38,504 nt of DNA from Gemmatimonas sp. GTDB lineage: Bacteria; Gemmatimonadota; Gemmatimonadetes; Longimicrobiales; Longimicrobiaceae. Position 1 is the stretch's first letter. Each line of letters begins with the position of its first letter. This document shows positions 16,436-27,402 of the stretch, in pieces. The position numbers and the translations under genes were made by a program. The notes below the pieces were generated by a model that was not told the DNA's origin, did no database searches, and was given only the letters and a program-made list of their open reading frames with translations. The DNA is taken from contig WHSP01000027.1 in assembly GCA_009380025.1 (NCBI GenBank), forward strand, positions 1 through 38,504, given 5' to 3'.

Positions 16436-16663
16436 AAGTAGCGCAACGAACGCGGTTCGCGCGGCAGCCAAAACCTTCTGAATGGTTAGGGGTAGCAGCG
16501 AGCGCAGGGGGTTCGGGAAGGGTTTGAAAATAGACGGGTGGCCAGGCGCGAATCTTCGGATCCGCCCTGGCCATTCGACTGTCAGGCTCTGGGAATCGAT
16601 CGCTTGGAGTGACCTGCAGCAAAGACCAACACAACCAATTGCTTCACCATGGGGGGACGACGT

Positions 16664-17077
16664 ATGAAACGGATGGGAGGCGTTTTCTGGCTGGTGGCTT
16701 TGCTTGCGGTCGTCGGAGTCCGGCCTGCTTCGGCTCAGTCGCCCGACCGTACGATCTGGGACGGAGTCTATACGGAAGCGCAGGCAACACGCGGGCAAAG
16801 AGCCGCCCAGCAGAATTGCGGGTCCTGTCATTCGCCCACGGAATGGTCGTCCGCCGTGTTCATCACCTCCTGGACGGGACATTCCATTCACGAGCTGCAC
16901 AGCCATCTGCGCAGCACCATGCCGTTCGATTCTCCGGGCCGACTGACCCGCGAGCAGTATTCGGATATCGTCGCATACATGCTGAAGTTGAACGATGTCC
17001 CAACGGGCACGCAGGAGCTGCCGAGCGACGAGGAAGAATTGCAGAGGATCGAGGTCACCCGCAAGAAATCGCGGTGA
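16664..17077 (+). CDS. Secreted monoheme c-type cytochrome
   Basis: 137-residue precursor. Signal peptide about 1-24 (KRMGGVFWLVALLAVVGV ... ASA). Heme site C52-G-S-C55-H56; the likely sixth ligand is Met86 in STMPFDSPG. The start region DRTIWDGVYTEAQATRGQ is typical of small periplasmic cytochromes linked to alcohol or sorbitol-type dehydrogenases. The ATG at 16664 follows a G-rich stretch (GGGGGGA) and gives a normal signal peptide; an ATG 15 bp upstream is possible. The Ccm cluster at 24.9-30.1 kb would mature it. It lies 296 bp before an FAD amine-oxidase gene on the same strand, and may accept its electrons (inference). Confidence 0.9.
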   Translation: MKRMGGVFWLVALLAVVGVRPASAQSPDRTIWDGVYTEAQATRGQRAAQQNCGSCHSPTEWSSAVFITSWTGHSIHELHSHLRSTMPFDSPGRLTREQYSDIVAYMLKLNDVPTGTQELPSDEEELQRIEVTRKKSR

Positions 17078-17373: not shown

Positions 17374-18612
17374 ATGGATCGTCGAAAGTTCATCAAGGCA
17401 GCCGGCATTCAAGCCGGTGCATTGCTGGCCGCGCGCGAATCAGCGGATGCTTCGAATCGGGCGCCGAGTAAGATTCGTACGCGTGCCTCGATCCCGGAGG
17501 TGGTTGTCGTCGGCGCAGGGGCCTTCGGCCTCTGGACTGCCTATCATCTCCAGCGCCTCGGGCATCAGGTTGCACTAGTCGACCTTTATGGCCCCGGGAA
17601 TTCACGCGCGACCTCGGCCGACGAAACGCGGGGGATCCGAACCGGGTACGGTGAGAACGAGTTGTGGAGTCGCTGGGCGAAGGTGGCTGTCGAGCGATGG
17701 CAGGCGTGGGATGTCGAGTGGGGAACAACCATGTTCACGCGCACCGGCGACATCTGTATGCGCGCTGAATGGGATGGGTTCCTCGCTAACACCACCGCGA
17801 CTTGGGACAAGGTGGGCGTTCGGTATGAGCGGGTTTCGGCCGATGAAATCCGCTATCGCTATCCTCAGATAAACGTAGATGCGTTCACCGTCGGCGTCTA
17901 CGAACCGGATGCGGGGGTTGCCAAAGCGCGCTACGCTTGCCTCACGCTCGCCGATAGGTTCCGCGAGCTGGGCGGCGCAATCACGATCGGCCACGCAGAT
18001 CTCGGTGACCGTACCAGCGATCGTCTGGATTCGATAGCGCTCCGACCTGGTGGCAGTCTCTCAGCCCAGACCTTCATCTTCGCCGTCGGGCCCTGGTTCC
18101 CAAAGCTGATGCCCGACCTCATGGGCGGTAAGATCCGGATTCCGATGGGTCACGTTTACTACTACGGTGCTCCGCCGGGCGACCTGCGGTTCAACGCCCC
18201 GAACTGTCCCAGTTACAACTTCCCTGGCGTTACCGGATGGCCGATCCTCGATCATGACAGCCGAGGCTTCAGGGTGCGCACAGGGGGTCGTCAGGGGGAC
18301 GATCCAGACACGTCGGTGAGATGGATCGACGAGCAGTATCATGAACCGGCTCGGCGAATCCTCATTGATCACTTTCCCGACCTCGCCGACGCACCTCTGC
18401 TCGAAACTCGCTGTTGCCACTACGAGCTCAGCTCGTCCAACAACTTCATCATCGATCAGCATCCCGAGTTCAGCAACGTCTGGATCGCGGGCGGCGGTTC
18501 GGCTGAGGGCTTCAAGTTCGGACCCGTGCTCGGTCCGTACATAGCCAACCGGGTAACGGGCCGCGAGGATGATCCGGAGCTTGCCGACACGTTCCGAATC
18601 CCCAGCGAATAG
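17374..18612 (+). CDS. Tat-exported FAD-dependent amine/sarcosine oxidase-like enzyme
   Basis: 412 residues of the DAO family, closest in pattern to monomeric sarcosine oxidase. Twin-arginine signal at the start (RRKFIK, residues 3-8, then a small-residue stretch). FAD-binding GAGAFG at 47-52. The end has ETRCCHYELSS and FIIDQHPEFSNVWIAGGGS; Cys348 falls where sarcosine oxidase carries covalently linked FAD, so a covalent flavin is possible. Substrate is unknown. The Tat signal puts it in the periplasm, unlike the usual cytosolic oxidase, so a cytochrome c such as the one just upstream may take electrons instead of O2 (inference). The ATG at 17374 has no clear ribosome site. Confidence 0.87.
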   Translation: MDRRKFIKAAGIQAGALLAARESADASNRAPSKIRTRASIPEVVVVGAGAFGLWTAYHLQRLGHQVALVDLYGPGNSRATSADETRGIRTGYGENELWSRWAKVAVERWQAWDVEWGTTMFTRTGDICMRAEWDGFLANTTATWDKVGVRYERVSADEIRYRYPQINVDAFTVGVYEPDAGVAKARYACLTLADRFRELGGAITIGHADLGDRTSDRLDSIALRPGGSLSAQTFIFAVGPWFPKLMPDLMGGKIRIPMGHVYYYGAPPGDLRFNAPNCPSYNFPGVTGWPILDHDSRGFRVRTGGRQGDDPDTSVRWIDEQYHEPARRILIDHFPDLADAPLLETRCCHYELSSSNNFIIDQHPEFSNVWIAGGGSAEGFKFGPVLGPYIANRVTGREDDPELADTFRIPSE

Positions 18613-18837: not shown

Positions 18838-19263
18838 TCAGGTGGTTGTAGGCGCTGCCGATCGGGGCGTTATCACTTCATCCAGCAGAAAGATGTCGGT
18901 GAGCAAGGCTCGAACGTGGATGGAGGCGTTGAGGTTGTCCACCAGTTGCGAGCTGATTGCCGGCTGGGCCATAGTCAACCGGAAAGCCGCTCCAGCGTTG
19001 TCGGCGTCTCGCTCGAGCACGGCGAGGAAATCGGTGTAATGCGGGTTGGAATCGAGGCCTTCGTCGGCGAGCACGGCCGTGAAGCCATCTGCGAGGCTCC
19101 CGATAGCCCTCTCGCTCCGGTTGAGGAACTCCCGTAACTGCGCGCCAGTCTTGGAGGCCTCGTGGGTCGAGAGCCCCTGGGCCGCGTACGCAAGCATGAA
19201 CTCGTACGTCTCTTCGATCGCCTCGATCCGAGACTGCAGCTCCTGTCGGGGTGAATCCGCCAC
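18838..19263 (-). CDS. Small helical protein of unknown function, last in the Mo-hydroxylase operon
   Basis: 141 residues, alpha-helical by composition, no signal peptide and no membrane segment. I do not recognise the family. Rich in Glu, Leu and Ala with one central charged stretch. GTG start at 19263 follows AGGAGG on the minus strand, and the upstream cytochrome b gene stops 8 bp before it, so it is surely translated with the operon. It could be an assembly helper or soluble subunit for the enzyme; no direct sign shows this. Known Mo-hydroxylase chaperones (XdhC/CoxI/PaoD) look different and are longer. Confidence 0.7.
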   Translation of the reverse strand: MADSPRQELQSRIEAIEETYEFMLAYAAQGLSTHEASKTGAQLREFLNRSERAIGSLADGFTAVLADEGLDSNPHYTDFLAVLERDADNAGAAFRLTMAQPAISSQLVDNLNASIHVRALLTDIFLLDEVITPRSAAPTTT

Positions 19264-19271
19264 CGCTCCTC

Positions 19272-20159
19272 CTACGACTCCCCGCCGGTGGCCGAGGGCG
19301 TCGGTGTCTCACGTTGCTTCACACCCTTGAGTGGCACCGACTTGGGCGCTACCGGCCAACGACTCGGGTTGTGATGCCAGGCGTAGTCCCGACGTGAGAT
19401 CCAGCCCCGGATCATCGACCAGGTGATCCAGTGCTTCTCCGGATGCAGCGCGAAATAGATGTGCACCATGATCGCCCCGACGAAGACGACGGAGGCGAGT
19501 CCATGGAGAACGAACATCATGCCCCAGGCGCTGTCGGACAGAATGTAGGGATTGGCAGGAGCGAAGATCGTGTCCACCCGAAGCATCATGAGGAGGCCCG
19601 TCGCCACGACGGCCAGTCCGGCGAACATCGTGAGATGGTGGAAAGCCTTGTTCTCCGTTGCCCACTTCCCGGGCTTCGGTGGCTCGGGTCCATCCTTACC
19701 GGTGACGAGCTTCAGCCGGTCCCACATTTCGCCGAGTTCTTTGAAGCTGATCCACATCGAACCGAGGCTCCGCTTCGAGACCGCGTGGACCGTGTGGAAT
19801 ACGGTATACACGGCCAAGGCGAGGCCAGCGATCCAGTGGATCGTGACCCATGGGAACTTCAGGCCCAGGATAGGTACGAACCCGGTAACCAGCAGCGTGA
19901 GGACAGCAACCGCGAGGATCCAATGGGAAATCCTCGAGACGAGGGTGTGGCGCTCAACCTGCTCGGGTGCCCCCGGTGCCGCACGCTGTACCTCCTCCTC
20001 GGTCGGTGGCACCTCCTTCTTCGCGATGAAAGCCGCATAGACCGCATGCCCGATGACGAAGGCAGCGCCCGCGACGACCGCCACGTAGAGGAGGGTCCAG
20101 GAGACCCCGATGAGGACCTCCTGGCTCCAGGGGTTCAATGCTCGGCGGAAAAGCTCCAT
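19272..20159 (-). CDS. Membrane b-type cytochrome (formate-dehydrogenase-gamma/b561-like)
   Basis: 295 residues with an extra N-terminal membrane helix (about 18-42) followed by the di-heme cytochrome b fold. Histidine-bearing helices: RISHWILAVAVLTLLVTG, TIHWIAGLALAVYTVFHTVH, AFHHLTMFAGLAVVATG and VLHGLASVVFVGAIMVHIYFALH. These look like FdnI/HyaC-type subunits that pass electrons between a periplasmic dehydrogenase and quinone. Its ATG overlaps the stop of the FAD-subunit gene by one base (TAATG). In the operon it would be the membrane anchor and quinone reductase for the molybdenum hydroxylase, an unusual partner for that enzyme class. Confidence 0.88.
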   Translation of the reverse strand: MELFRRALNPWSQEVLIGVSWTLLYVAVVAGAAFVIGHAVYAAFIAKKEVPPTEEEVQRAAPGAPEQVERHTLVSRISHWILAVAVLTLLVTGFVPILGLKFPWVTIHWIAGLALAVYTVFHTVHAVSKRSLGSMWISFKELGEMWDRLKLVTGKDGPEPPKPGKWATENKAFHHLTMFAGLAVVATGLLMMLRVDTIFAPANPYILSDSAWGMMFVLHGLASVVFVGAIMVHIYFALHPEKHWITWSMIRGWISRRDYAWHHNPSRWPVAPKSVPLKGVKQRETPTPSATGGES

Positions 20160-21163
20160 TACACAGTCTCCTGCCCGCGGATGGACCGCTTCACGAGGTT
20201 ACGCATCAAGGGCACCTTGTACCCATTCAGGCGGAGAGGCTCGGCGCCTCGCACTGCCAGCTCACCGGCCGCCGCCGCGGTTTCCTCGTTGGCGGGCTGC
20301 CCGATGATCGCCTGCTCGACCCGAAAGAGCCGGAGTGGCTTCGCCGCAACCCCACCCACTGCAATCCTCGCATCCTGAATGACACCGCCTTCTACGCGAA
20401 GCGCAGAAGCGACGTTCACCAGCGGGAAGTCCCACGACTTCCGGTCCGTCACCTTCTCGAAGTAGAAGCTCGCCCCCGACCAGGCGTTCGGAATCCGGAT
20501 CGTGGTCAGCACATCGCCGGTCCGCAGGACGGTCATCTGTTCGATATCCGTCCCCGGCCCGATGAAGAAGGTCGCCGCGTCGATCTCACGCTCGCCGCTC
20601 CGGTTCTGCACGACCATCCGTGCGTCCAGGGCGATGAGTGCCGGAGCCGTATCCGAGGGACTCACGGCGACGCACCGATCCGCACCGAGGATCGCGTGCT
20701 CCCGGTTCAGCGAGGCCGGCGTATTGGCGTAGCAGATGTTGCCGCCGGCCCGGTAGCACGGCCAGCCGGCACGGTAGTACCAGCAGCGTGTGTCCTGAGA
20801 GACGTTCCCGCCAATGGTTCCCTGATTTCGGATCTGCGGCGTCGCAACCTTATTCGCCGCTTCAGCGAGCACGCTGTAGTTCTGCTGGATCTCCGGATCC
20901 TTGACGACGGTCGAGAGCGGGGCGAGCGCCCCGATGTCGACACCGTCTGCTGTCGCCCGAATCTCCCTCAGCTCCTGGATCCCGGCTAGATCCACGAGCG
21001 CGGTAACCCGCTTCGTGCGATCCTTGAGCCAATCCCAGGTGTCCATCCCTCCGGCGAGAACGCGAGCGCTCTCGCCGTGTTCGTTGAGCAGCGCAATCGC
21101 ACCTTCCACATCCGTCGGCTGGAAGAGCTCATACGCCGGCATTACGTCATGGATAACCGCCAT
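20159..21163 (-). CDS. Molybdenum hydroxylase FAD-binding subunit with extra Cys-rich insert (PaoB/HcrB-like)
   Basis: 334 residues, medium subunit of the xanthine-dehydrogenase family. FAD motifs: ARVLAGGMDT (33-42) and NQGTIGGNVSQ (113-123). Four cysteines C127, C136, C144 and C164 lie in an insert (TRCWYYRAGWPC ... GGNICYAN ... DRC); PaoB and 4-hydroxybenzoyl-CoA reductase beta hold a 4Fe-4S cluster there, so one is expected here. The start is the ATG at 21163, with AAGGAG just upstream; a start at 21226 lies inside the large-subunit gene and has no such site. Spacing to that gene is 16 bp. Confidence 0.9.
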   Translation of the reverse strand: MAVIHDVMPAYELFQPTDVEGAIALLNEHGESARVLAGGMDTWDWLKDRTKRVTALVDLAGIQELREIRATADGVDIGALAPLSTVVKDPEIQQNYSVLAEAANKVATPQIRNQGTIGGNVSQDTRCWYYRAGWPCYRAGGNICYANTPASLNREHAILGADRCVAVSPSDTAPALIALDARMVVQNRSGEREIDAATFFIGPGTDIEQMTVLRTGDVLTTIRIPNAWSGASFYFEKVTDRKSWDFPLVNVASALRVEGGVIQDARIAVGGVAAKPLRLFRVEQAIIGQPANEETAAAAGELAVRGAEPLRLNGYKVPLMRNLVKRSIRGQETV

Positions 21164-21179
21164 TGTTCGCTCCTTCGGC

Positions 21180-23576
21180 TCAGACGTGGGTCTCGAGACG
21201 ACCGCAGGGCAAGCAGTCGTTCTCAACGATGCTCAAGATTTTGTCGGGAGTCAGCGGCTGGTGTGACGGGTGCTGGCCTCCCATTGCATCCTCGATGGCG
21301 CAGACCAGTGCACCGGCGCCCGCACCGACCGGCGGCTCCCCTATTCCCTTCGAACCCACCGGGTTCTGCGGGTCCGGCAGGTCGACCGCCGCAAAGATGA
21401 GCTCGGTCGGAATATCGAGCATCGTAGGCGGCTTGGTCGCTTCGATTCGCTTGGAGAGGTGGACGCCCCAGGTCGGGTCGATCGCCCACTTGAAGCTCTG
21501 GGCGATACCGATCCCCTGGATGACGCCGCCATTGCCCTGGGCGATCAGGCTCCTCGGGTTCAGCACCGTGCCGCAGTCCGCTACCGAGGTGACGTTGAGG
21601 ATCTCGTGCATGCCCGTCTCGAGATCCAGGTCCAGCTCGATCATCGAGACCACGAACGAGTACGTCCTCGCGGTGTGGGGAAGGTTGTCCTTCGCTGCCG
21701 CGACGAGACCCTGGCCCGCCAGCGCAGTTGCCGACGTACGGGTCATGTCGTTGATATCTTCCGGAAGTTCGTGGCCGTCGAACTTCCCGCCGCGAGCGAT
21801 CGCCCGCTCTGCCGCCTGGGCGAACGTCAGCGATCCACCCGGGCCGAACACCCGGCCACCACTCACCTGATAGGCGCTCGACGACCCGCCGAGCTCGAGC
21901 GCTGCCAGCTCCTGCAACAGCGTCTTCGCGAACTCACCCACGACCCAGTTCGCCCGGGTGTGCGCGTGCGTCGTCTGACTGCCGGACTGGCTCGAGCTGT
22001 GAGGCAGGTGCCGACTCGAGTGGCCCCAGACGACCTCGGTGTTCTCCCACGGGAAGTCGAGCGCCTCGGCCGCGGCCTTCGCCGTGTCGACGACCGAGTG
22101 AGTCCCCAGGTTCCCGACGCCCTGGTGGATGTACAGCTTGCCGTCCGGCCGGATGACGACCAGACCGTCCCATCCGCTCGTACCGCCGTAGTACGGGCTC
22201 AGCGCCATCCCCACTCCACGTACCTTGCTTCCGTTGCGCTGTCCGCTCCGCTGCCGACGCTCCGACCAGTTGAAGAGCTCGCCACACTGGGTCAGCGCCT
22301 CCGTTACGTATGCGCTCGTGATCGGGTAGGGCCCCCGGCCGAACTCTGTCTCGTGGTTCGGTGCGTTCACCAGGTGCACCTGGAGTGGATCGACACCCAG
22401 CTGGCGCGCCGCTCGACTGACGACCGGAGCCAGCATCGACACGATCTGCACGCCACCCGGGCCGCGCTGCGCCGCCCGTGGGGGGGTGTTGGTCAATACC
22501 GAAACCGTGCTGGCGCGCATTGCCTCGGGCGTATAACCCAGAGCGGATACGTCGCCGCTGGTGCTCGAGTCGCCCTGGCGACTATACGGGCCGTTGTCCT
22601 GGACGAGGAAGAGATCGAGAGCGGTGATACGACCGTCCCGGCGCATCCCCAGTCGGGCGTGGCCGAGCATCCCGGGCCGAGCCCGTCCCATCATCGTCTC
22701 TTCCGCCCGCGTGATCCGCATCATGACCGGGCGACCCGCCTTGCGGGAAAGGAGCGCCGGAATGACCTCGAGCACACTGCCGCGGATCTTGCTGCCGAAG
22801 CCCCCACCGCAGTATTCGGCGATGAAGAAGACGTCGTCGAGCTCGACCCCCACCCGATCCGCGATCGCACGGCGTGCCTGCGCGGTGCTCTGCGCCGAGC
22901 CATGCATGTACAGCTTTCCGTTCTGCCAGTACGCCATCGACGTACGGGGCTCCATCGGGTGGTGCGAGACCGACTGGCAGTAGAGTGTCTCTTCGATCAC
23001 CAGGTCCGCGTTCGCGAACCCGGCCTCGAGGTCGCCGTATTCCCATTGGTCCTCTTCCGTGCCCGGCCCGATCGGCATCTGGTCGGGGCCCACTCCATCG
23101 AAGACCGACTGGTCCCACTTGAGCGTCGTGATCTCCCGACCATTGTAGACATTGCCGCCGGTATTCGCGTCCGGTCCGCCCGGCCGCAGCGAATCGAGCG
23201 GGTTGAGGACGAACGGCAGCGGTTCGTAGTCGACCCGGATCAACTCGATCGCGTTCGCGGCCGTGACCTCGTCGACAGCTGCGACCGCCAGGATCGGCTC
23301 ACCCTCGTAGACCGGTTCGTTCGTCAACGCCGGTTCGAATGGGTGCTCCTCCTGCGGCACCTCGTCCGGCGTGAGCACCGCGACGACTCCCTCGAGCTCG
23401 AGAGCCGCACTGTAGTCGATGCTTCGGACCCGACAGTGGGGCATCGGGCTCGACAGGAGCTTCGTGAAGAGCATCCCTTCGGCGCGAAAGTCCTCCGCGT
23501 ACTTCGCACGACCCGTGATCTTAGCCACGAGGTCCTGCGGCGCGAAGCTCTGTCCAATCAGCTTGAAATCGGCCAC
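21180..23576 (-). CDS. Molybdenum hydroxylase large (molybdopterin) subunit
   Basis: 798 residues. Catalytic subunit of the xanthine-dehydrogenase/aldehyde-oxidase family, with molybdopterin-cytosine cofactor in bacterial members. Pattern: GRAKYAEDFR near the start, EYCGGGFGSKI and QRGPGGVQ in the middle, and the catalytic Glu747 in GSKGIGEPPVGAG. The CO-dehydrogenase loop (AYRCSFR) is absent, so it is not CO dehydrogenase. No signal peptide, so export would ride on the small subunit. Start: GTG 23576, 7 nt after GGGAGG; GTG 23582 is only 1 nt after it. The substrate cannot be named. Confidence 0.92.
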   Translation of the reverse strand: MADFKLIGQSFAPQDLVAKITGRAKYAEDFRAEGMLFTKLLSSPMPHCRVRSIDYSAALELEGVVAVLTPDEVPQEEHPFEPALTNEPVYEGEPILAVAAVDEVTAANAIELIRVDYEPLPFVLNPLDSLRPGGPDANTGGNVYNGREITTLKWDQSVFDGVGPDQMPIGPGTEEDQWEYGDLEAGFANADLVIEETLYCQSVSHHPMEPRTSMAYWQNGKLYMHGSAQSTAQARRAIADRVGVELDDVFFIAEYCGGGFGSKIRGSVLEVIPALLSRKAGRPVMMRITRAEETMMGRARPGMLGHARLGMRRDGRITALDLFLVQDNGPYSRQGDSSTSGDVSALGYTPEAMRASTVSVLTNTPPRAAQRGPGGVQIVSMLAPVVSRAARQLGVDPLQVHLVNAPNHETEFGRGPYPITSAYVTEALTQCGELFNWSERRQRSGQRNGSKVRGVGMALSPYYGGTSGWDGLVVIRPDGKLYIHQGVGNLGTHSVVDTAKAAAEALDFPWENTEVVWGHSSRHLPHSSSQSGSQTTHAHTRANWVVGEFAKTLLQELAALELGGSSSAYQVSGGRVFGPGGSLTFAQAAERAIARGGKFDGHELPEDINDMTRTSATALAGQGLVAAAKDNLPHTARTYSFVVSMIELDLDLETGMHEILNVTSVADCGTVLNPRSLIAQGNGGVIQGIGIAQSFKWAIDPTWGVHLSKRIEATKPPTMLDIPTELIFAAVDLPDPQNPVGSKGIGEPPVGAGAGALVCAIEDAMGGQHPSHQPLTPDKILSIVENDCLPCGRLETHV

Positions 23577-23587
23577 GTTCACCTCCC

Positions 23588-24217
23588 TTAGGCGGTCGTG
23601 CTACGCATGTACTCCGCGGCGCGCATCGCGGAGTTGAGGATCTTCGGATAGTCGGCACAGCGGCAGAGATTGCCCGAGAGCGCATGAGCCATCTCGTCGC
23701 GCGTCAAGGACGGGCTCTCCTGGATCGTCCCGACCATCGCCATGATGAAGCCGGGCGCACAAAACGCGCACTGGAAGCCCGCTTCATCGACGACCGCCTG
23801 CTGAACGGGGTGAAGCTCATCGCCGTTCGCAAGCCCTTCGATCGTCGTGACTTCTGCCCCACGTACCTGGTGCGTGAGCAGGGAACAGGAGTACTTCGGT
23901 ACGCCGTCGACCAGAACGGTGCAGGCACCGCAGTCGGCGCGGTCGCACCCGATCTTCGTTCCGGTGAGTCCCAACTTGTACCGGAGTGTCATTGCGAGCG
24001 TCTCTTGCTTCATCACGTCCACCCGTCGGTCCTGGCCGTTCACCCGGAGCGTGACGAGCCGCTCGACAGCACCCTGCGCCGACGCCGTCGACGCCCCTGA
24101 ACTGCGGAGCACGTACGCTCCAGCCGACACAGTCGCCCCCGTGGCCACCACCCCTTTGATGAAGGTGCGCCGGGAGACAGACCGTTCCACCCGCGATCTG
24201 AGGTCGAGTTTTTCCAT
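23588..24217 (-). CDS. Molybdenum hydroxylase 2Fe-2S subunit with Tat signal
   Basis: 209 residues. Tat signal: SRRTFIK at 15-21, then a hydrophobic stretch and an ASAQG cut-like site near 48. Plant-type 2Fe-2S cluster: C91, C96, C99, C111 (CDRADCGAC). Second 2Fe-2S: C150, C153, C185, C187 (CAFC ... CRC). All eight ligands present. The start is the ATG at 24217; an upstream start at 24352 would hide the signal. Same plan as E. coli PaoA (YagT), whose Tat signal takes the whole PaoABC enzyme to the periplasm. First gene of the operon. Confidence 0.93.
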   Translation of the reverse strand: MEKLDLRSRVERSVSRRTFIKGVVATGATVSAGAYVLRSSGASTASAQGAVERLVTLRVNGQDRRVDVMKQETLAMTLRYKLGLTGTKIGCDRADCGACTVLVDGVPKYSCSLLTHQVRGAEVTTIEGLANGDELHPVQQAVVDEAGFQCAFCAPGFIMAMVGTIQESPSLTRDEMAHALSGNLCRCADYPKILNSAMRAAEYMRSTTA

Positions 24218-24826: not shown

Positions 24827-24854
24827 TTGACGAACGTCCGAATCTTTGTATATT
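24827..24854 (+). promoter_or_regulatory. Sigma-70-type promoter of the ccm cluster
   Basis: TTGACG (24827-24832, 5 of 6 matches), 16-bp spacer, TATATT (24849-24854, 5 of 6). RNA would start near 24861, giving a leader of about 33 nt to the TTG start of ccmE. The A/T-rich -10 stands out from its GC-rich surroundings. Confidence 0.65.
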
Positions 24855-24893
24855 TGCAACCCTGCGCAAGAACCCTCGGACCGGGAGGCGAAC

Positions 24894-25331
24894 TTGAAGA
24901 AGCAAAAGCAGTTTCTTCTGGGTGGTTCCTTGATGATCGGTGTGGTCGGCTACCTGATGGTGACGGGCATGCGGGAATCGATCGTCTATTATCACACGCC
25001 CGACGAGCTGATGGCCGAGGTTGCCGCCGATCCAGGGTACCATGACCTCGGGGTGAAGGTCGGCGGGCGCGTGCTCCCCGGCAGTGTGCAGTACGACCAG
25101 CGGACGCTCGATCTTCAGTTCGAGATCGTCGACATCGAATCCGGGCTCCCCGCCTTTCCGGTCGCGTTCCAGGGGCCGCTTCCCGAAACGTTCACGGAGG
25201 GCGTCGATGTGGTGGTGGAGGGGCAGTATACTCGCGAGGGGGTTTTCGAAGCGACGAACCTGCTCACGAAGTGTGGGTCTCGCTACGAGGCCGCCCCCGA
25301 CGACTACCTGACGCCCCCGACGACGACTTGA
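24894..25331 (+). CDS. ccmE: Cytochrome c maturation heme chaperone CcmE, CxxxY variant
   Basis: 145 residues, periplasmic heme carrier with one N-terminal membrane helix (about 7-26). The OB-fold core includes VGGRVLPGSVQYD and EGVDVVVEGQYTREGVFEA. In most CcmE proteins heme is bound by a His in the motif HxxxY; here the place is Cys127 with Tyr131 (KCGSRYEA), the CxxxY form known from Desulfovibrio and archaea. The TTG at 24894 follows GGGAGG at 24883-24888 by 5 nt and puts the membrane helix in place. First gene of the cluster; ccmF starts 1 bp after its stop. Confidence 0.93.
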   Translation: MKKQKQFLLGGSLMIGVVGYLMVTGMRESIVYYHTPDELMAEVAADPGYHDLGVKVGGRVLPGSVQYDQRTLDLQFEIVDIESGLPAFPVAFQGPLPETFTEGVDVVVEGQYTREGVFEATNLLTKCGSRYEAAPDDYLTPPTTT

Positions 25332-25332
25332 C

Positions 25333-27402
25333 ATGACGCAGATAGGGGAGATCGCTCTCTGGGTCGCGCTCGTCCTCGCCGTCTGGGGGGCGGGCGCGGC
25401 TTTCGTAGGTGGCCGTGCGAAGCGGGGCGATATCGCGCTGTCCGGTGAACGGGCCGTTATCGTTGTGTTTGCGTTGCTGGCGATCGCCTCGCTCGCGGTC
25501 ATCGCCGCGTTCCTCGGCAACGAGTACCAGTACCAATACGTCGCGGGGTACTCCAACCGCGACCTGCCCACGTTCTACAAAGTGGCGGGTCTTTGGGCGG
25601 GTCAAACCGGCTCCCTCGTCTTCTGGGCCCTCCTCCTCTCGCTCTTCAGCAGCCTCGCCGTCGTCCAGAATCGGAACCGGAATCGCGAGCTGATGCCCTA
25701 CGTTGCGGGGACCCTCCTGGTGGTGCTCGCCTTCTTCCTCCTGGTCATCGTCACCGTTTCGAATCCATTCACGCAGATGCCGTTCGCGCCGGCGGACGGA
25801 CGCGGGCTCAACCCGCAGCTGCAGAACTACTGGATGACGATCCACCCGCCGACGCTGTACCTCGGCTTCACGGCGTTCACGATCCCGTTCTCGTTCGCCA
25901 TCGCCGCCCTTCTCTCGGGCCGGCTCGACAGCCGCTGGATCACCACGACGCGGCGATGGACGCTGCTCTCGTGGTTCTTCCTCACGAACGGCATCATCTT
26001 CGGGATGATGTGGGCGTACGTGGAGCTGGGATGGGGCGGCTACTGGTTCTGGGACCCTGTGGAGAACGCGTCGCTCTTGCCATGGTTGACCGCGACCGCG
26101 TTCCTGCACTCGGTGATGATCCAGGAGAAGCGCGGGATGTTGAAGATGTGGAACATGCTCCTGGTGGTCGGCACGTTCCTCCTCTGCATCCTGGCTACCT
26201 TCCTGACGCGTTCGGGGCTGATCGAATCGGTCCACACCTTCGCCACGAACCTGCCGATTGCCTACATCTTCCTGGGCTTCATGTCGGTGGCGACAGTGAT
26301 GGCGTCGGCGTTGGTCTGGTGGAGGCGCAACGAGCTCGGGCCGGAGGCGCAGGTCGAGTCGTTCCTCTCGCGGGAAGCGGCGTTCCTGGGGAACAACCTG
26401 CTCTTCATCGCCGCGATGTTCGCCGTGCTCTGGGGAACGCTCATGCCGCTGATCACGGAAGGGTTGATGGGGCAGAGGATCGCGGTCGGGCCTCCGTTCT
26501 ACAACCAGGTCGGCATCCCGATCGGTCTACTGCTGCTCGCTCTGCTGGGGATCGGCCCCGTCATCGCGTGGCGCAAGGCGAGCAAGCGAAACCTGCAGCG
26601 GAACTTCGTCTGGCCGATCGTGGCCGCAGTGACGGTCGCGGCGGCCCTGTGGTTGGGGGGTGTGCGCCACGTACAGGTGCTGCTGACCTTCGCGCTGGGT
26701 GCCTTCGCCATCACGACGGTGGTGGTGGAGTTCAAGAAGGGAACGAAGGCGAGGGCGACGATCGAGGGTGAGGGAATCCCGAAAGCGTTCGTCCACCTCA
26801 TCCAGAGGAATCGTCGTCGCTACGGCGGATACATCGTGCATGTCGGTCTGGTAGTGATGTTCATGGGCTTCGCGGGCGCCGCGTACAATGTGGAGAGCGA
26901 GATCGGTGGAATGCTGCCGGGCGAGAGCACGGAGATACAGTCGCCGTTCGGGCACACGTACCGGCTCACATACCTGGACATGTCGTGGGACAACCACACG
27001 AATGGTGTGGCGGTGGTGGCCTCGATGGTCATCGAGAGGGACGGTCGGCCGATCGGGATGCTCACTCCTCAACAGCGGTGGTTCAACCAGCGGGAAGAAG
27101 TCAATATGGAGATTGGTCTCAAGCGGGCCTGGAACGAGGACTTATACCTGATCCTGGCCGGCGTTGACGACCCCGGTGGCTTCATGGAAGGTCGCAACCC
27201 CCGTCCGGCGGCGACATTCCGAATCCTCGTCAATCCGCTAGTGCCGTGGATCTGGATGGGGGGCATGATCATGGCGCTCGGAACGTTGACCGCGCTCTGG
27301 CCAGCGGGTCCGGCGGGATCGGGTGGGATTCCGGCCGAGGGTACGGAGAGGCCGGAGCGGGCGCGCGCACGTCGGAGCGAGGAGCAGCTGGCCGGTGTGT
27401 AG
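25333..27402 (+). CDS. ccmF: Heme lyase subunit CcmF
   Basis: 689 residues, large multi-pass membrane protein (about 14-15 helices). It joins heme to apocytochrome CxxCH. The WWD heme-handling motif is WAYVELGWGGYWFWDPVENA (about residues 220-240), and the family sign TRSGLIESVHTFA follows. A soluble domain near 530-620 and two last helices complete the usual plan. The ATG lies 1 bp after the ccmE stop. In this cluster it likely pairs with the variant CcmE and CcmH below. Confidence 0.95.
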   Translation: MTQIGEIALWVALVLAVWGAGAAFVGGRAKRGDIALSGERAVIVVFALLAIASLAVIAAFLGNEYQYQYVAGYSNRDLPTFYKVAGLWAGQTGSLVFWALLLSLFSSLAVVQNRNRNRELMPYVAGTLLVVLAFFLLVIVTVSNPFTQMPFAPADGRGLNPQLQNYWMTIHPPTLYLGFTAFTIPFSFAIAALLSGRLDSRWITTTRRWTLLSWFFLTNGIIFGMMWAYVELGWGGYWFWDPVENASLLPWLTATAFLHSVMIQEKRGMLKMWNMLLVVGTFLLCILATFLTRSGLIESVHTFATNLPIAYIFLGFMSVATVMASALVWWRRNELGPEAQVESFLSREAAFLGNNLLFIAAMFAVLWGTLMPLITEGLMGQRIAVGPPFYNQVGIPIGLLLLALLGIGPVIAWRKASKRNLQRNFVWPIVAAVTVAAALWLGGVRHVQVLLTFALGAFAITTVVVEFKKGTKARATIEGEGIPKAFVHLIQRNRRRYGGYIVHVGLVVMFMGFAGAAYNVESEIGGMLPGESTEIQSPFGHTYRLTYLDMSWDNHTNGVAVVASMVIERDGRPIGMLTPQQRWFNQREEVNMEIGLKRAWNEDLYLILAGVDDPGGFMEGRNPRPAATFRILVNPLVPWIWMGGMIMALGTLTALWPAGPAGSGGIPAEGTERPERARARRSEEQLAGV

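Follow-up and report, generated by a model that had tools for sequence, protein, structure and literature searches.

A conserved operon encoding a putative periplasmic molybdenum hydroxylase with its own b-type cytochrome in Gemmatimonadota and Acidobacteriota

Gene content of the operon

Five adjacent genes on the minus strand span positions 24217-18838 of the window, which is the whole stretch of 38,504 nucleotides analysed here, and neighbouring genes of this operon overlap or sit no more than about 20 bp apart. Listed in their 5' to 3' order, the genes encode the following products.

23588..24217 (-): Fe-S subunit with 2x[2Fe-2S], PaoA-like; Pfam Fer2_2 (4e-26), Fer2 and TAT_signal
21180..23582 (-): large molybdenum-cofactor subunit of the xanthine oxidase family; Pfam Ald_Xan_dh_C, MoCoBD_1 and MoCoBD_2
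20159..21163 (-): FAD subunit with a four-cysteine insert; Pfam FAD_binding_5 and CO_deh_flav_C
19272..20159 (-): cytochrome b with five helices, formate dehydrogenase-N gamma type; Pfam PF01292 (Ni_hydr_CYTB), E 7e-17
18838..19263 (-): small helical protein without a family, GTG start; no Pfam or NCBIfam match

The open reading frames and Pfam matches confirmed the coordinates and the gene order given in a preliminary description of this DNA, which had also called the cytochrome "fused into the operon"; the cytochrome does belong to the operon but is encoded by a separate gene of its own and is fused to nothing. The features of the xanthine oxidase family were all found, i.e., the Ald_Xan_dh_C and MoCoBD domains with the catalytic Glu, the 2x[2Fe-2S] subunit and the FAD subunit. 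A search against Rfam gave no match. Cytochrome c maturation genes adjoin the operon at window positions 24846-27402 (CcmE by Pfam, followed by a CcmF-like protein), likewise in the closest named locus (L035). On the other side, positions 17374-18612 encode an FAD oxidoreductase of the DAO family, whose start (MDRRKFIKAAG) is Tat-like, beside a small cytochrome c gene (16649-17077).

The Fe-S subunit begins MEKLDLRSRVERSVSRRTFIKG, with SRRTFIKG as the Tat signal and a likely cleavage site at ASA. The Pfam TAT_signal match (E 0.00036) lies slightly below the cut-off of that model; the twin-arginine motif is present in the window, as the preliminary description had claimed, and in 94 of 94 complete Fe-S homologues. 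The signal is confined to this subunit, the large subunit having no signal peptide. The insert of the FAD subunit reads TRC..WPC..NIC..DRC in the window, and its cysteines C127, C136 and C144 are conserved in 109/109 FAD subunits and C164 in 107/109. All four align with those of E. coli PaoB, and they probably form a [4Fe-4S] site. Both the Tat and the cysteine counts were taken on a wider set of fetched loci than the linkage counts given below.

For the large subunit the GTG at 23576 is the likely start rather than the one at 23582, since it aligns with the MADYKLIG of homologues and is preceded by GGGAGG. The catalytic Glu (E749, in GIGEPP) is invariant, and the other invariant residues are also kept. 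The nearest solved structure was 1rm6_A (4-hydroxybenzoyl-CoA reductase) both by sequence and by profile; every curated cut-off for named enzymes was missed by a wide margin. In the phylogenetic tree the family forms a single clade, well apart from PaoC and the remaining molybdenum hydroxylases that these genomes encode. A plasmid search returned large-subunit relatives of only about 31% identity and no relatives of the cytochrome.

The only solved chain matched by the cytochrome in the profile search was 1kqf_C (formate dehydrogenase-N gamma, FdnI), which was also the only match at E<=0.001 when the confident structure model (pLDDT 90) was searched with Foldseek (E 4.5e-6, probability 1.00). 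The curated cut-off for formate dehydrogenase gamma (TIGR01583) was missed, at 47.6 vs 115.85 bits, and the model has five helices vs four in formate dehydrogenase gamma, the extra one being the first (residues 21-44), which amends the plain gamma-type cytochrome of the preliminary description. H79, H108, H219 and H233 are invariant in 35 cytochrome sequences and correspond to the four positions that we take to be the heme ligands of FdnI; H79, H219 and H233 were matched to 1kqf_C in the printed alignment and H108 was assigned via its xHxxxG motif. Further invariant histidines (H38, H71, H122, H174) lie on the cytoplasmic side of the model's helices and, speculatively, may serve a quinone site, a proton site or a third heme. 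The mean numbers of K+R in the loops were 4.3, 6.5 and 6.0 for those taken as cytoplasmic vs 1.4, 0.4 and 2.2 for the periplasmic ones, and on this basis the N terminus was placed in the periplasm. In front of the extra helix lies a small hairpin whose NPWGQ motif is conserved; if periplasmic, this hairpin could contact the enzyme.

The small protein belongs to no Pfam or NCBIfam family and is strongly conserved, with 17 invariant residues among 45 homologues. Its confident model (pLDDT 93) is a compact bundle of helices, which matched no structure at E<=0.001 in the fold search; relatives with a solved structure were not found either. Neither a signal peptide nor a membrane helix is present.

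Linkage and taxonomic distribution

When a single genome of each species was scanned, 418 relatives were identified, and the best 80 loci were kept, nearly all of them from Acidobacteriota and Gemmatimonadota. Linkage was counted in these best 80 of 418 loci plus the window by profile searches over all reading frames, using loci with enough sequence. At 69/69 loci the FAD gene has the Fe-S gene upstream of it, and at 63 of the 69 its immediate upstream neighbour is the large-subunit gene. The cytochrome gene follows downstream of the FAD gene at 68/75 loci, the other seven having no cytochrome next to it, and the small gene is present at 47 of the 62 loci that have a cytochrome. The separation of these two genes from the subunits in most relatives, which the preliminary description had named as the result that would count against it, was hence not found. 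Since the arrangement recurs across Gemmatimonadota and Acidobacteriota it is not due to chance.

Within the same set of loci the small gene tracks the cytochrome and not the trio of Fe-S, large and FAD subunits, being absent from every cytochrome-less locus; from this pattern, we prefer the reading that the small protein assembles or completes the cytochrome. The 15 loci without the small gene are mostly from one acidobacterial group (L050 and relatives, from sponge-associated and other acidobacteria), so the small protein is not essential there. In L050, L051, L053 and related acidobacteria of this group, genes for a TPP-dependent enzyme and an isocitrate-lyase-family protein lie upstream of the operon.

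The small protein was found in 66 of 298 sampled Gemmatimonadota genomes, and the cytochrome in 31 of 297 sampled Acidobacteriota genomes, almost always as a single copy. The system was absent from all eight genomes sampled from the family to which the window belongs, and the distribution is therefore patchy. The closest named locus, L035, is from a Gemmatimonadota metagenome-assembled genome; its large subunit is about 70% identical and it shares the neighbouring ccm genes. The carriers include both soil and marine bacteria of the two phyla. Assigning a substrate from the gene neighbours was tried and rejected, as the contexts vary with the clade and have no common partner; PQQ dehydrogenases near five loci were judged not clearly above expectation.

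Catalytic subunits apart from the operon

The window's genome (G000) encodes a second Fe-S/large/FAD trio of the family on contig 71 (L131), without cytochrome b. Because such close trios occur without a cytochrome in the same genomes, the trio can work with another acceptor, and the cytochrome-less trios may use c-type cytochromes. A stand-alone large subunit, intact and 66-67% identical to that of the window, is encoded on contig 456 of the same genome (L133:5840-8257), with no partner genes nearby. As to its neighbours, the L131 trio is followed by a beta-propeller gene and genes for c-type cytochromes, and a PQQ dehydrogenase is encoded in the vicinity.

It is the catalytic gene that separates from the operon. 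In five marine acidobacterial genomes (L036-L040) the operon consists of the Fe-S, FAD, cytochrome and small genes, with one large-subunit gene lying alone at another locus; in these marine acidobacteria (L036-L040 and L161-L167) the lone gene adjoins genes for a DUF362 protein and a 3-keto-disaccharide hydrolase. Soil acidobacteria, too, carry intact stand-alone copies without partner genes close by, and in several of them the large-subunit genes outnumber the Fe-S and FAD genes, mostly beside a single cytochrome in the genome. At L061:4501-10942 (L172), two large-subunit genes occur in one operon with one Fe-S and one FAD gene and with a small lipoprotein-like gene in between. A family of likely exported proteins (L172:5319-5741; about 140 aa, no Pfam match) has homologues at L080, L095, L098, L108, L117, L175, L177 and L180 and recurs mostly near cytochrome-less trios and stand-alone large subunits.

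The flanking sequence fetched for 20 stand-alone loci contained none of the genes for the Fe-S, FAD, cytochrome and small proteins. Some stand-alone loci (L171, L175, L176, L178, L184) lie at or near contig ends, and the genomes are metagenome assemblies; two stand-alone copies with the same flanks in G300 probably reflect strain redundancy of the assembly and were not counted as two. Complete stand-alone large subunits keep 109-112 of the 112 invariant residues, and the loop TPPRxxQRxPGG near the active site differs between groups of large subunits. The stand-alone state arose repeatedly, with at least seven label changes forced on the tree.

We put forward tentatively, and with slightly more doubt than conviction, that one membrane module of Fe-S, FAD, cytochrome and small proteins serves several interchangeable large subunits encoded elsewhere in the genome. 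No signal peptide is evident in the stand-alone large subunits, and if they use this module, their export would have to proceed via the Fe-S subunit of another locus. Such a molybdenum hydroxylase would have substrate heads that can be exchanged, a plug-and-socket design of which we know no example in this enzyme family. The stand-alone catalytic subunits are the more surprising part of the finding.

Putative mechanism and comparison with known systems

The Tat motif, the gene linkage, and the profile and fold of the cytochrome support the preliminary description of a periplasmic molybdenum hydroxylase with its own b-type cytochrome. We consider it likely that the system is a respiratory enzyme, exported by Tat, which passes electrons via its Fe-S and FAD subunits and two hemes to quinone. 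For export, cofactors, docking, the direction of electron flow and the acceptor, we infer the following. The Fe-S, molybdenum and FAD subunits would fold in the cytoplasm and leave it jointly through Tat, carried by the one signal that the Fe-S subunit provides (hitchhiking); XdhC-type maturation genes elsewhere in the genome were counted in favour of the mechanism as a whole. The periplasmic molybdenum site would oxidise an organic substrate; where the preliminary description named none, we give only the likeliest class, an aldehyde or an aromatic compound. Electrons would run from Mo over the 2x[2Fe-2S] to FAD/[4Fe-4S], heme bP, heme bC and quinone. The cytochrome would dock the trio on the periplasmic face, probably through its conserved N-terminal hairpin (NPWGQ..), and the small protein would act on the cytoplasmic side, either in cytochrome assembly or as part of the quinone side of the cytochrome. 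Quinone is the expected acceptor since the operon supplies a cytochrome, and transfer to quinone, as the preliminary description had suggested, is the best reading because this cytochrome resembles formate dehydrogenase-N gamma by profile and by fold. Tat export, substrate oxidation and electron flow to quinone fit every feature tested.

Were the flow reversed, quinol would reduce the hemes and the molybdenum site would dehydroxylate or otherwise reduce its substrate, as in 4-hydroxybenzoyl-CoA reductase. This enzyme, a reductase working in the opposite direction, is the closest solved relative of the large subunit by sequence and profile, and its FAD subunit likewise has a cysteine insert; the insert pattern found here, however, is of the PaoB/aldehyde oxidase type, no CoA thioesters are to be expected in the periplasm, and the scores of the three subunits fall far under all curated cut-offs for 4-hydroxybenzoyl-CoA reductase (331.9 vs 994.6, 190.6 vs 404.6 and 153 vs 257.8 bits), which together make reversed flow quite improbable. 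Delivery of the electrons mainly to a periplasmic c-type cytochrome instead of quinone would agree with the cytochrome c maturation genes adjoining the operon in the window, with the small cytochrome c gene (16649-17077) near the operon in both the window and L035 and with its homologue near the cytochrome-b-less trio L131. We regard it as very improbable, given that such a cytochrome c gene is near just these three loci and that this route would not need a transmembrane cytochrome of the formate dehydrogenase-N type; in FdnI the electrons cross the membrane and reach quinone at a site facing the cytoplasm.

The small protein might alternatively belong to the enzyme itself, as a subunit with a periplasmic location or a regulatory role, in keeping with its high conservation and the position of its gene as the last of the operon. 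Its lack of a signal peptide and the fact that its gene never occurs without a cytochrome next to the FAD gene, and is missing from the cytochrome-less trios, render this unlikely, and a partnership with the cytochrome is preferred. Quinone-linked oxidation by the enzyme would add a route by which abundant uncultured soil and marine bacteria feed respiration, and a conserved operon with a dedicated cytochrome b makes a quinone-linked molybdenum hydroxylase directly testable.

A literature search, mostly without subscription papers, found no description of such an operon. PaoABC of E. coli shares the three subunits, the Tat signal on the Fe-S subunit, the aligned four-cysteine insert and a large subunit without a signal. 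The large subunits are only distantly related, however (216.9 bits vs a curated PaoC cut-off of 1180), and the E. coli operon encodes the chaperone PaoD and no cytochrome; the earlier statement that PaoABC has the Tat signal and the insert without a cytochrome b agrees with that operon and with the cysteine alignment. That the subunits are exported together on a single Tat signal is established for PaoABC (PMC4273604), whose electron acceptor was reported as not identified in 2014 (PMC3958847). Aerobic CO dehydrogenase (CoxMSL) has the same domain layout of the three subunits, from which the operon in the window differs by its Tat signal and cysteine insert; the curated large-subunit cut-offs were missed (141.9 vs 991 and 182 vs 950 bits).

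Of the solved structures, 4-hydroxybenzoyl-CoA reductase (1rm6) matches the large subunit best, and its FAD subunit has an extra [4Fe-4S], as is probable here, whereas the cysteine spacing of the insert differs; to our knowledge that enzyme has neither a Tat signal nor a cytochrome. FdnI (1kqf_C) has the cytochrome fold and all four heme-ligand positions in common with the cytochrome described here but four helices, to which an N-terminal helix and further invariant histidines are added in the present family, and it serves an enzyme of the DMSO reductase family whereas the partner here is of the xanthine oxidase family. The parts are of known kinds; joined to a cytochrome of their own and a partner protein not described before, and conserved in two phyla, they make up a new variant.
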